A DNA stretch of 64,000 nt, from contig JAAYEQ010000047.1 in assembly GCA_012728655.1 (NCBI GenBank), forward strand, positions 1 through 64,000, written 5' to 3'. The position numbers and the translations under genes were made by a program. Origin of the DNA: Syntrophomonadaceae bacterium. Lineage in GTDB: Bacteria; Bacillota; Syntrophomonadia; Syntrophomonadales; DTU052. Positions 2-45,931 of the stretch are shown here, in pieces (within the stretch, counting starts at the first letter, position 1; each line of letters opens with the position of its first letter). A model generated the notes under the pieces. The model made no database searches and was not told where the DNA came from. It worked only from the letters and a program-made list of their open reading frames with translations.

Positions 2-1318
2 ACTTTCAAAGTGACCTTTGATAAGGCCCAGGACCCTGAGTATCGGGATCTGGTCGTGGTTAAATCACACCTGACCGGCAAGCCCATCAACAGGTGGACC
101 CATATCCATCAGAGTATGGAAGACCTGCTCGCCAAGCAGTTGATCACCAGAAAGCTCTGCAACCTAACCGGCGGATGCATCCAGAGGTGTATGGGGACCG
201 ATGCCATGAACGCCTTGTCGGTGGTCACCAAGGATTGCGATCTGAAGTACGGAACCAACTATTATGACAGATGGCTCAAGTATCTGGAATACTTCCAGGA
301 GAACGATATCGTCGCCTCCTGCGGACAGACCGATGCCAAAGGCGACCGGAGCAAACGCCCGGGCGAACAACCGGATCCGGATCAGTATGTGCATGTGGTG
401 GAAAGGCGTCCGGACGGGGTGGTGGTCCGGGGAGCGAAACTTCACAACACCTCGGCGATGGTCGATGAGATCATTGTTATTCCCACCCGGGCTCTGCGGG
501 AAAACGAAAAGGATTACGCTATCGCCTTTGCCATCCCTGCGGATACGGAAGGGGTTTATCTGATCAGCAAGTACTCGGAGTTTAGCACCCGTGCTCCCGG
601 TTTGGAGTCGCCGCTGTCCGAAATCGGCGATGTTGAATGTATGGTGGTGCTGGATAATGTCTTTGTTCCCAATGAGCGGATCTTTCTAAACGGTGAAACC
701 GAGTTCGGCGGGCAGTTGGCTCTGTTGTTTGCACTCTTCCACCGCCACAGCTACACCGGGTGCAAACCGGGCATGGCCGATGTCATGATGGGAACGGCTG
801 CTCTGGTTACCGACTACCTGGGAATTGGCAAAGCTCCCCACATAAGAGAAAGACTGGCCGAGATGGTAAGCACGGCGGAAATCGTTTTCGCCTGCGGCGT
901 TGCGGCCGCACATTATGGGCGCAAAGCGGCTTCGGGGACTTACGTGCCTGATATCGTCTTCGCCAATGTTGGCCGCCGCCACGCCGGGCACAACATCTAC
1001 CATGAATATGCACTCCTGAGCGAGATGGCGGGCGGACTTGCCGCCACGCTGCCTCACTCCCGGGATTACAACAGCCCGGTGGTCGGCGATTTTGTCCGCA
1101 AATATGTAACCCGGCGGGCGGGCGTTTCGGCGGAGAACCATTACCGGGCCTGGCACCTGGCAGCCGACCTTCTGGTCTCCCACACCGCAAGTGTGGCCCA
1201 CGTAGCCGGACTGCATGGCGGCGGCTCGCCGATCATGGAGGATATTGCCCTGATGAATTCATACGACCTGGAGTCCAAAAAGAACCTGGCCAAATACCTG
1301 GCCGGCATTAAAGAATAG
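2..1318 (+). CDS. abfD: 4-hydroxybutyryl-CoA dehydratase / vinylacetyl-CoA isomerase family protein, 5'-truncated by window edge
   Basis: Open frame continues upstream of the listed start (T-F-K-V-T-F-D-K from position 2). Contains CIQRC (CxxxC) and HRHSYTGC (H-x6-C), matching the four [4Fe-4S] ligands known for this family. Confidence 0.88.
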   Translation, partial: TFKVTFDKAQDPEYRDLVVVKSHLTGKPINRWTHIHQSMEDLLAKQLITRKLCNLTGGCIQRCMGTDAMNALSVVTKDCDLKYGTNYYDRWLKYLEYFQENDIVASCGQTDAKGDRSKRPGEQPDPDQYVHVVERRPDGVVVRGAKLHNTSAMVDEIIVIPTRALRENEKDYAIAFAIPADTEGVYLISKYSEFSTRAPGLESPLSEIGDVECMVVLDNVFVPNERIFLNGETEFGGQLALLFALFHRHSYTGCKPGMADVMMGTAALVTDYLGIGKAPHIRERLAEMVSTAEIVFACGVAAAHYGRKAASGTYVPDIVFANVGRRHAGHNIYHEYALLSEMAGGLAATLPHSRDYNSPVVGDFVRKYVTRRAGVSAENHYRAWHLAADLLVSHTASVAHVAGLHGGGSPIMEDIALMNSYDLESKKNLAKYLAGIKE

Positions 1319-1420
1319 GGAGCGGGAACGGGCCTGCGCGGCTCAGATATATGTCGGGGATGGGACCGGGGGCTGCCAGGTGGAATCCGGGTCCCGGGTC
1401 CCGCAATTTTCAATTAAGAA

Positions 1421-2974
1421 TTGAGGGGTGAAAGAGTGATCAGAACACCGGAACAATACCTGGAATCAATAAACGACGGGCGCGAGATATGGGTACTGGG
1501 GGAGAAGGTCAAGGATGTACGCACCCATCCCACCCTCAGGAGCATCATCCAAACCACGGCCATGGATTTTGTCCTGCCCAATCATCCCGAGTTCCGGCAT
1601 CTCTTCGTAACCCAGGATGAGGATGGGGAGGATATCAATTTCCTTTTGACCTCACCCAGGACGGTCGAGGACCTCTTGCGGAGACGGGAATGCTATATTG
1701 CCGGGATGCGCGCCGGGGGAGGAGTAGTCGTCCATTGCATGGGGTCCGATGCCTTGGCCGCCTTTGAAGTGGTGGCCCAGCTGATGGACAACGAGTTGAA
1801 AACCAATTATTCGGAGCGGGTCAAGAATTATCAGCGGATGCTGCAGAAAAAGGACCTGGCCATTACCGGAGCCGTCACCGATGTCAAGGGTGACCGCAGC
1901 CTTAGGCCCTCCCAGCAGAAACAGCACCAGGACTATTACCTGAGGATAGTTGACAAGAACAAAGACGGGATTGTGGTGCGGGGCGCGAAAGTCCATATCA
2001 GCTGCACCCCCGGAGCCAACGAAGTCCTGTGTCTGCCCTGCCGCACTCACGGAGAGGCCGACAAGGATTACGCACTGGCTTTTGCCACCCCCTTAAACGC
2101 ACCCGGGATCAAACTCCTGGGGGTTGAGCCGATTACCCGGACTTACGGTGCGGAAGGAGACTTTGATTTTCCAAAATCGAGCCATTTCCAGCCGCCTGAG
2201 TGCCTGATAATTTTTGATGACGTGTTTGTGCCCTGGGAGCGCGTCTTCATGTGCGGGGAGTGGCAGTTTACCCGTAACCTGGCTTATGCCTTTGCCAGCT
2301 ACCACCGCCTGTTCGGAGCCTGCAAAATGGTCGGCAAGCTGGAGATACTGACCGGGGCTGCGGCGCTGATGGCGGAGTACAACGGGGTAGACAAAGAGGA
2401 TCACATCCGCAAGAAACTCGCCTGGATGGCCATGATTACAGAAACGGTGGCCATGCTGGGGAAAGCGGCCTGCATGGAACCGGAGAAGGAATTCGGTTCA
2501 GATATATTGATGCCAAACCGGATGGCGATCAATGCCGCCAAGTACACGTTTGCCAGCAACTTCCATCAGATGTGCCAGTACCTCCAGGACATCAGTGGAG
2601 GACTGGTGGCAACCGTTCCTTCATACCGGGATTGGATGAACCCCGAATTACGTCCCTATATCGAAAAGTATCTCAGCGCCCGGGACGGCGTTCCCACCGA
2701 ACACCGGCTGCGCATGCTCCGTTTGGCCAAGGATTACACCAGCAATTTCTACCAGGTTGATACCATCCACGGCGAAGGTTCTATGGCCGCTCAACAGATG
2801 TTCCTTTACAACAGTGCCGATTGGGACAAGATGAAAGCGGCAGCGAAAAGAGCGGCTCACATCGATGGCTGGCAGGATCACCCGATTTACGGCAAACTCC
2901 CGGTGACCGAGGAAGAAGTAAAGATGCCGCCGGTGGATGAGTCCTACCAGGCCATCCCCAAAGCCGCGCCGTAA
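1421..2974 (+). CDS. 4-hydroxybutyryl-CoA dehydratase / 4-hydroxyphenylacetate 3-hydroxylase (HpaB) family paralog
   Basis: 517 aa, collinear in sequence with the preceding ORF (VKGDRS, VVRGAKVH, DDVFVPWERVF, GGLVATVPSYRD), but the Fe-S ligand positions differ. Confidence 0.8.
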   Translation: MRGERVIRTPEQYLESINDGREIWVLGEKVKDVRTHPTLRSIIQTTAMDFVLPNHPEFRHLFVTQDEDGEDINFLLTSPRTVEDLLRRRECYIAGMRAGGGVVVHCMGSDALAAFEVVAQLMDNELKTNYSERVKNYQRMLQKKDLAITGAVTDVKGDRSLRPSQQKQHQDYYLRIVDKNKDGIVVRGAKVHISCTPGANEVLCLPCRTHGEADKDYALAFATPLNAPGIKLLGVEPITRTYGAEGDFDFPKSSHFQPPECLIIFDDVFVPWERVFMCGEWQFTRNLAYAFASYHRLFGACKMVGKLEILTGAAALMAEYNGVDKEDHIRKKLAWMAMITETVAMLGKAACMEPEKEFGSDILMPNRMAINAAKYTFASNFHQMCQYLQDISGGLVATVPSYRDWMNPELRPYIEKYLSARDGVPTEHRLRMLRLAKDYTSNFYQVDTIHGEGSMAAQQMFLYNSADWDKMKAAAKRAAHIDGWQDHPIYGKLPVTEEEVKMPPVDESYQAIPKAAP

Positions 2975-3024: not shown

Positions 3025-3062
3025 TCCCGTGTCACGACAGCAGTGGCGCGGGAATTTTTATT
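3025..3062 (+). terminator. Rho-independent terminator after the 4-HBD-like genes
   Basis: TCCCGTGTCAC-GACAGCA-GTGGCGCGGGA stem (11 bp with G-U pairs) followed by ATTTTTATT. Confidence 0.7.
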
Positions 3063-44659: not shown

Positions 44660-44785
44660 GAGACCAGAGGTGACTTATTAGAGGCATACCAAATTAAACA
44701 ATCCAGGCAAAAACGCGCTTATCGGGGTATTATGCGAAGCAATATATGGACCTGCCTGGCTATTAACAAGCGAGGGGGATGGGCG

Positions 44786-45931
44786 ATGGATTTTCGTTTG
44801 ACGGAAGAACAGGAAATGTTTCGCAAAGTGGTCCGTGACTTCGCAGAGAAAGAGGTAGCCCCCAGCGCAGCCGAACGGGATGAAGAAGAACGGTTTGACA
44901 TGGATATCTTTTTCAAGATGGGAGAGCTGGGCCTCTGCGGCATTCCCTGGGAAGAAGAGTACGGTGGAGCAGGATCGGATTTTGTCAGCTATGTCATAGC
45001 GGTTGAAGAATTGTCACGGGTATGCGCCTCGACCGGGGTGACCCTGTCTGCACACATTTCACTATGCTCCTGGCCGATTTGGAAATTCGGCACCGAGGAA
45101 CAGAAGCGGAAGTACCTGATTCCCCTGGCTGAAGGAACCAAACTGGGAGCATTTGCGATTACCGAGCCCTCAGCCGGCAGTGACGCCGGCGGTACCAGAA
45201 CTACAGCCGTTCTGGACGGTGATCACTACGTACTCAATGGGACCAAGGTATTTATAACCAATGCCTACTATGCAGACATTTATGTCGTCATTGCCCGTAC
45301 CGGGCCTAAGGAATTGAAACACCGCGGCATCAGCGCCTTCATTGTGGAAAAAGGCACTCCTGGTTTCAGTTTTGGCAAGAAAGAGAAAAAACTCGGGATT
45401 CGGTCGTCGGCAACGTACGAACTGATATTTGAGGATTGCCGCATTCCCAAAGAGAACCTGCTGGGCCAGGAAGGCGAAGGATTCAAGATCGGAATGATGA
45501 TCCTGGATGGGGGACGAAACGGTATAGCGGCTCAGGCAGTGGGAATTGCTCAGGGGGCCTTCGATTTTGCACTCCAGTATGCCAAGCAACGGGTTCAATT
45601 CGGACGGCCCATTGCCGAGCAGCAGGCCATTCGCTTTAAATTGGCCGATATGGCTACCCGGATTGAAGCTGCTCGTCTGTTAACCTATCAGGCAGCCTGG
45701 TTGGAGTCGGCCCAGCTTCCTTACGGAAAGGCAAGCGCCATGGCCAAGCTGTACGCCGGTGATACGGCTATGTATGTTACTACCGAAGCCGTGCAGATCC
45801 TGGGCGGTTACGGCTACAGCCGCGAGTATCCGGTGGAACGCATGATGAGAGACGCCAAGATAACGCAGATATACGAAGGAACCAACGAGATCCAGCGGGT
45901 TGTGATTTCCAACATGCTGCTTAAGGATTAG
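44786..45931 (+). CDS. bcd: Acyl-CoA (butyryl-CoA) dehydrogenase
   Basis: [26 protein letters not shown]...[21 protein letters not shown]...[35 protein letters not shown]. Confidence 0.96.

Follow-up and report, generated by a model that had tools for sequence, protein, structure and literature searches.

On phylogenetic grounds, ORF2, a protein encoded at the start of the 64,000-nucleotide stretch of Syntrophomonadaceae DNA analyzed here (the window), is a member of an old family that is sister to the cluster-containing proteins related to 4-hydroxybutyryl-CoA dehydratase (4HBD). Members of this family are predicted to be cluster-free, and they carry a glutamate at the position of the acyl-CoA dehydrogenase catalytic base. 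With a little better than even confidence, we propose that ORF2 is a stand-alone cluster-free FAD enzyme that acts on an acyl-CoA by Glu-base desaturation or isomerisation, and not by radical dehydration.

Two HpaB-domain genes at the start of the window

The window opens with two ORFs on the same strand, each containing HpaB_N and HpaB domains according to Pfam (Table 1). The original prediction had described them as tandem 4HBD paralogs that align closely, the second of which lacks two of the four ligands of the [4Fe-4S] cluster. The motifs that it quoted, CIQRC and HRHSYTGC in ORF1 and VVVHC and HRLFGACK in ORF2, were all found in place, although the identity between the two proteins was 36%, which falls short of a close alignment. 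When ORF1 was examined for the residue set of AbfD, the 4HBD of Clostridium aminobutyricum, the four ligands and the Tyr were present and E455 was replaced by Ala or Gly across the ORF1 subfamily. Because this subfamily is without E455, the identity of ORF1 as a 4-hydroxybutyryl-CoA dehydratase is not established, and of the tandem 4HBD paralogs what stands is two same-strand HpaB-domain genes.

The contig of the window (C73) begins at window base 1, and the absent N-terminus of ORF1 was located on a second contig (C54), which has 141 identical terminal bases in common with the window start. Given this exact overlap, the truncation of ORF1 seems to result from the assembler having broken the contig at a k-mer, and not from a true end of the gene. 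ORF2 has 512 amino acids when read from GTG 1436 and 517 when read from TTG 1421, and its residues are numbered here from the latter. The GTG, 117 bases past the ORF1 stop, is most likely the true start, because a likely ribosome binding site sits 7 bases before it. A putative terminator past ORF2 would end an ORF1-ORF2 transcript. Between close genomes, dN/dS was 0.036-0.064 for ORF2 and 0.046-0.062 for ORF1, indicating strong purifying selection on both, and we conclude that both are real, conserved genes. The motifs of ORF2 are near-invariant over more than 40 orthologs, and this near-fixation, together with the low dN/dS, shows that they did not arise by chance.

Table 1. Features of the ORF1-ORF2 region, in window coordinates
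Feature	Position	Strand	Basis
ORF1, [4Fe-4S]-type AbfD-family flavoprotein (CIQRC / AGxHGG subfamily)	2..1318	+	Pfam; best PDB sequence match 1U8V, 358 bits
ORF1 5' end cut by contig end	2..1318	+	missing N-terminus on contig C54
ORF1 CIQRC, equivalents of AbfD C99 and C103	176..190	+	sequence
ORF1 HRHSYTGCK, equivalents of AbfD H292, Y296, C299 and K300	740..766	+	sequence
ORF1 AGLHGGGS; AbfD E455 replaced, position 460 Gly	1205..1228	+	sequence
AGGGG, likely ORF2 ribosome binding site	1424..1428	+	sequence read; inferred
ORF2, predicted cluster-free AbfD-sister flavoprotein	1436..2974	+	Pfam; orthologs; tree; AlphaFold2 model pLDDT 91.5; dN/dS
ORF2 V102-V-V-H105-C106: C99 to Val, C103 kept, AbfD Arg102 to His (clade-invariant)	1724..1738	+	
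ORF2 H295-R-L-F-G299-A-C301-K: H292 kept, Y296 to Gly, H-x5-C spacing like 6VJR	2303..2326	+	
ORF2 E452 codon (motif IHGEGS, 2768-2782), acyl-CoA dehydrogenase catalytic-base position	2774..2776	+	
Terminator-like hairpin then T run, ~50 bases past ORF2	3025..3053	+	pattern scan; hairpin number not above shuffled expectation

The genome of the window encodes eight AbfD-family members, ORF1 and ORF2 included, and three canonical-looking AbfD copies lie on its contigs C31, C39 and C46. On contig C23 of the same genome (locus L027:8857-16053), we found a four-ligand paralog belonging to a third subfamily (GNYHGG), and beside it, all on one strand, genes for an acyl-CoA dehydrogenase, for a thiolase and for a hydratase/dehydrogenase resembling FadB; this gene context suggests a role in beta-oxidation for the GNYHGG subfamily. 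We also observed a small protein of ~93-111 amino acids with the motif [KV]-x-[YF]-C-G-[GH]-C-N-P, whose gene adjoins canonical AbfD-type genes in six loci (L024:9978-10256 (-), L025:3662-3982 (-), L131:9805-10107 (-) and L106-L108), two of them in the genome of the window. It gave no Pfam match in the four copies scanned and no NCBIfam match in the three scanned, and may serve as a so far unnamed partner or as an electron carrier.

Phylogeny and distribution of ORF2

A maximum-likelihood tree of 88 sequences was built without the ligand columns, and HpaB-type rows served as the outgroup. All 30 four-ligand sequences, ORF1 among them, formed one clade (SH-aLRT 99), and the 53 cluster-free sequences formed its sister with a support of 90, which is below the 95 mark; ORF2 was positioned well inside this sister group. 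A thinned tree agreed, with supports of 98.8 and 91.5, and a topology that unites the ORF2 clade with the cluster clade was rejected (p-AU 0.007). ORF2 therefore did not group with the four-ligand sequences, the placement expected of an AbfD-type protein. This position in the cluster-free sister family indicates that ORF2 did not arise from ORF1 by copying and loss of ligands. A recent tandem duplication of ORF1 into ORF2 was ruled out by the 36% identity and the tree.

The closest named records came from Syntrophothermus metagenome-assembled genomes (MAGs). Orthologs, at 63-97% identity, were found in Syntrophothermus-like MAGs, in Desulfobacterota (Desulfobacteraceae, Syntrophaceae and Smithella), in Dehalococcoidia and other Chloroflexota, and on one Lokiarchaeota MAG contig; most of these orthologs come from MAGs, and the Lokiarchaeota contig may have been mis-binned. 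Identity across phyla was 63-76%. Beyond the orthologs, two Dehalococcoidales sequences reached 54%, and the remaining matches were at or below 50%. Within the phylum of the ORF2 host, searches of 100 relatives and then of 300 genomes gave no match above 43% outside the genus. The Syntrophothermus copies were nested within the Desulfobacterota group in the tree, and for this reason ORF2 was probably gained horizontally by this genus.

Cluster-free relatives with the same Glu as ORF2 were also seen on plasmids of aerobic Rhodococcus (L120 and L121), where they are annotated only as HpaB-domain proteins and have acyl-CoA synthetase, SDR or acyl-CoA dehydrogenase genes as neighbors. Our search of the open-licence literature turned up neither an account of a cluster-free sister family of 4HBD nor biochemical data on a cluster-free member.

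Cluster ligands and the radical tyrosine

In AbfD, the radical tyrosine is Y296; its role and those of E455, E257 and T190 were reportedly described by Zhang et al. in 2015. The four ligands of AbfD (C99, C103, H292 and C299) are not all present in ORF2, in which C99 is Val. Throughout the ORF2 clade, the C99 column contains Val, Ile or Phe, while Y296 is replaced by Gly in 32/32 sequences and E455 by Asp in 93%. Similarly, across the 53 cluster-free proteins C99 is never Cys and Y296 is never Tyr. ORF2 very probably cannot run the canonical AbfD chemistry, in agreement with the original prediction.

The claim that two of the four ligands are lacking was borne out for C99 alone. The other position had been scored as lost because the last Cys of HRLFGACK comes one residue early and Lys takes its column. 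However, the 4HBD of Nitrosopumilus maritimus (6VJR) reads HRRSYVCK, with the same H-x5-C spacing as ORF2, so that the "early" Cys301 is not evidence of ligand loss; in this register the Lys after C301 matches AbfD K300. Judged from the alignment, the only certain ligand loss in ORF2 is that of C99 to Val.

The residues that remain could be thought to hold an altered iron-sulfur or metal centre through C106, H295 and C301, a set of three like that of aconitase, or through these and H105, which would make ORF2 a dehydratase of shifted chemistry. C106, H105 and H295 are invariant in the ORF2 clade, C301 is present in 29/32 rows, and the spacing is that of the N. maritimus enzyme. We nevertheless consider such a centre unlikely, given that C301 is Ser in three Chloroflexota orthologs, C106 is absent from near sisters and the radical Tyr is Gly clade-wide. 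Furthermore, since the deeper sisters have no Cys at either place, C106 and C301 look like later gains. The losses of C99 and Y296 and the change of E455 would also fit a catalytically dead or purely regulatory homolog. This is quite improbable in view of the purifying selection on ORF2 (dN/dS 0.036-0.064), the 63-76% identity retained across phyla and the invariance of H292, R293 and Glu452.

A glutamate at the acyl-CoA dehydrogenase base position

At position 460 of AbfD, which corresponds to E452 of ORF2, Glu was found in 53/53 cluster-free proteins and Ala or Gly in 30/30 cluster proteins, and none of the five HpaB-type rows had Glu. The rule linking C99 to position 460 was obeyed by all 48 previously unused sequences (46 with C99 and Ala/Gly, two without C99 and with Glu). 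In acyl-CoA dehydrogenases, a Glu serves as the catalytic base (Glu376 in the medium-chain enzyme).

When the ORF2 family profile was aligned over its whole length with acyl-CoA dehydrogenases, the alignment ended before the EGS motif, and a C-terminal HMM alignment paired E452 with the acyl-CoA dehydrogenase Glu at very low probability. The register was therefore checked by a window scan, in which 13 residues around the catalytic Glu of the acyl-CoA dehydrogenase encoded at window 44732-45931 were compared, without the Glu column, with successive positions of each family profile. In the cluster family, the scan picked G461-SPQAQR (z 5.4, next 2.9), so that AbfD 460 falls on the dehydrogenase base, and the same place came out on top among the remaining cluster-free proteins (z 4.67, next 3.25). 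For the ORF2 clade, the expected place was second without the Glu column (z 3.43 vs 3.61) and first with it (z 3.69, next 2.72). The window scan, and weakly the HMM alignment, support a correspondence of E452 to the catalytic Glu in the C-terminal EG[ST] motif of acyl-CoA dehydrogenases. The loss of C99 and the presence of Glu460 coincide on one branch of the tree and, read from that tree, are one historical event seen many times. Because the split between cluster and cluster-free proteins may be a single event, we treat the Glu as a strong marker and not as proof of function.

Predicted fold and nearest known systems

By Foldseek E-value, the AlphaFold2 model of ORF2 was nearest to AbfD (1U8V, 7e-37), followed by N. 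maritimus 4HBD (5e-36) and HpaB-type structures (7e-32 and weaker), but the TM-scores of 0.86, 0.85 and 0.76-0.84, respectively, hardly separate them; acyl-CoA dehydrogenases were far behind, with a TM-score of ~0.45. A Pfam scan to an E-value of 1 returned HpaB_N and HpaB only, with no acyl-CoA dehydrogenase domain. Among NCBIfam models, TIGR02309 (HpaB-1) scored best, at 226 bits against a cut-off of 480, and another HpaB model scored 141 against 885.

ORF2 has in common with AbfD the fold and the equivalents of K-G-D-R, K-x-H-x-S/T, E257, C103, H292 and H458. It differs from AbfD in the changes of A460 to Glu and of E455 to Asp as well as at C99 and Y296, and the two proteins show 30% identity in the fold alignment and fall in separate clades. 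The residues of AbfD type that ORF2 keeps and HpaB lacks (K-G-D-R, K-x-H-x-S/T, H292, R293 and H458) suggest a CoA-thioester substrate. The 6VJR protein, described in the PDB as an oxygen-tolerant 4HBD, resembles ORF2 in its fold and in the H-x5-C-K spacing after the ligand histidine, but it has CFQRC and the Tyr and sits in the four-ligand clade. The acyl-CoA dehydrogenases resemble ORF2 in a distant fold match and in the Glu of EG[ST] at the base position, and differ in that ORF2 has no Pfam acyl-CoA dehydrogenase match.

HpaB, 4-hydroxyphenylacetate 3-monooxygenase (2YYG/2YYJ), has the Pfam domains and overall fold of ORF2 and no cluster, and TIGR02309 is the best NCBIfam match even if far under its cut-off. 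It is nonetheless scarcely credible that ORF2 works as a flavin monooxygenase like HpaB or as an aromatic hydroxylase turned to another use, an option that had been entertained previously. The catalytic residues of Thermus thermophilus HpaB, Arg100-Tyr104-His142 (PMC10537072), are His, Ala and Gly in 32/32 rows of the ORF2 clade. In addition, ORF2 lies in its own clade on the AbfD side of the tree, apart from the HpaB rows, and has the AbfD-side H292, H458 and KGDR; its hosts belong mainly to anaerobic lineages, and no gene for an HpaC-kind flavin reductase adjoins ORF2 in the window.

Two further systems offer points of comparison. BbuA, a gamma-butyrobetainyl-CoA trimethylamine lyase, is an acyl-CoA dehydrogenase-like flavoenzyme that removes a C4 group and has ~10% identity to 4HBD (PMC8364193). 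It is a possible analogy in outcome only, as a flavoenzyme without the AbfD cluster that eliminates the C4 group from a CoA thioester. In Metallosphaera sedula, no determined activity is listed for the second 4HBD-annotated gene, Msed_1220, which was not up-regulated (PMC7078158); by this description it is a precedent for an AbfD homolog other than a working dehydratase.

Gene neighborhoods of ORF2

Three Syntrophothermus-like genomes, that of the window among them, retain the ORF1-ORF2 pair. Outside the genus, none of 47 ORF2 orthologs had a paralog from the family up to two genes away in either direction, where flanks exist, so that synteny of the pair, which the original prediction had proposed to check, is conserved within the genus and not beyond it. 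One ortholog (L135) is a looser exception, with a paralog of another subfamily 1.2 kb downstream and an alcohol dehydrogenase gene between them. A conserved operon with ORF1 outside the genus was ruled out by the 47 paralog-free neighborhoods. Four-ligand AbfD paralogs commonly occur as tandem pairs in genomes that carry ORF2 (L130, L132, L133 and L136, from Syntrophaceae and Desulfobacteraceae, and also L134), and L130 contains four AbfD-family members within 8 kb.

These neighborhoods bear on the suggestion that ORF2 is a partner subunit of ORF1, in a mixed tetramer with the cluster carried by ORF1. In the window the two genes lie next to each other on one strand with 117 bases between them, and three genomes have the pair; tandem family pairs exist elsewhere, and 29/30 ORF2-bearing genomes encode further family members whose identity to ORF1, 41-54%, is in the range of four-ligand proteins. 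However, a mixed tetramer has little probability in our estimation, because the orthologs outside the genus lack an adjoining paralog, the paralog at L135 is of another subfamily with a gene in between, and the tandem pairs elsewhere are both of four-ligand types. The neighbors of the orthologs included acyl-CoA synthetases, acyl-CoA dehydrogenases, SDR and 3-hydroxyacyl-CoA dehydrogenase, genes that occur commonly in such genomes; where a hint of the substrate was sought, they proved to be mixed acyl-CoA genes, with no neighbor or pathway consistent across the orthologs.

Proposed function of ORF2 and its significance

A stand-alone FAD-only acyl-CoA enzyme is, we infer, the best reading of ORF2; the FAD-only isomerase put forward by the original prediction agrees with it in part, isomerisation being one of several possible outcomes. 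ORF2 would bind FAD and no cluster, and Glu452, aided by H295, would remove the alpha proton from an acyl-CoA that lies over the FAD. If the flavin accepted a hydride, the outcome would be alpha,beta-desaturation; if the flavin stayed in place, a redox-neutral double-bond shift or loss of a gamma-substituent would follow. Neither outcome would involve a cluster-driven radical.

The radical site of 4HBD arose inside an acyl-CoA dehydrogenase-like fold. In two archaeal cycles of CO2 fixation, 4HBD is regarded as the key enzyme (PMC12794621). The annotation of cluster-free homologs as 4HBD or HpaB should not be read as evidence for the corresponding pathways in the genomes of anaerobes. Tentatively, and at somewhat less than even confidence, we suggest that an old and widespread cluster-free branch of the 4HBD family in anaerobes keeps or regained the acyl-CoA dehydrogenase Glu and catalyzes a reaction of CoA thioesters that has yet to be described; the [4Fe-4S]/Tyr radical site and the Glu base would then be mutually exclusive in one fold, and the family would record a switch between two-electron and radical flavin chemistry. 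A sister family without the C99 ligand and the radical Tyr, and with the base Glu, is a natural comparison for the residues that make radical chemistry.
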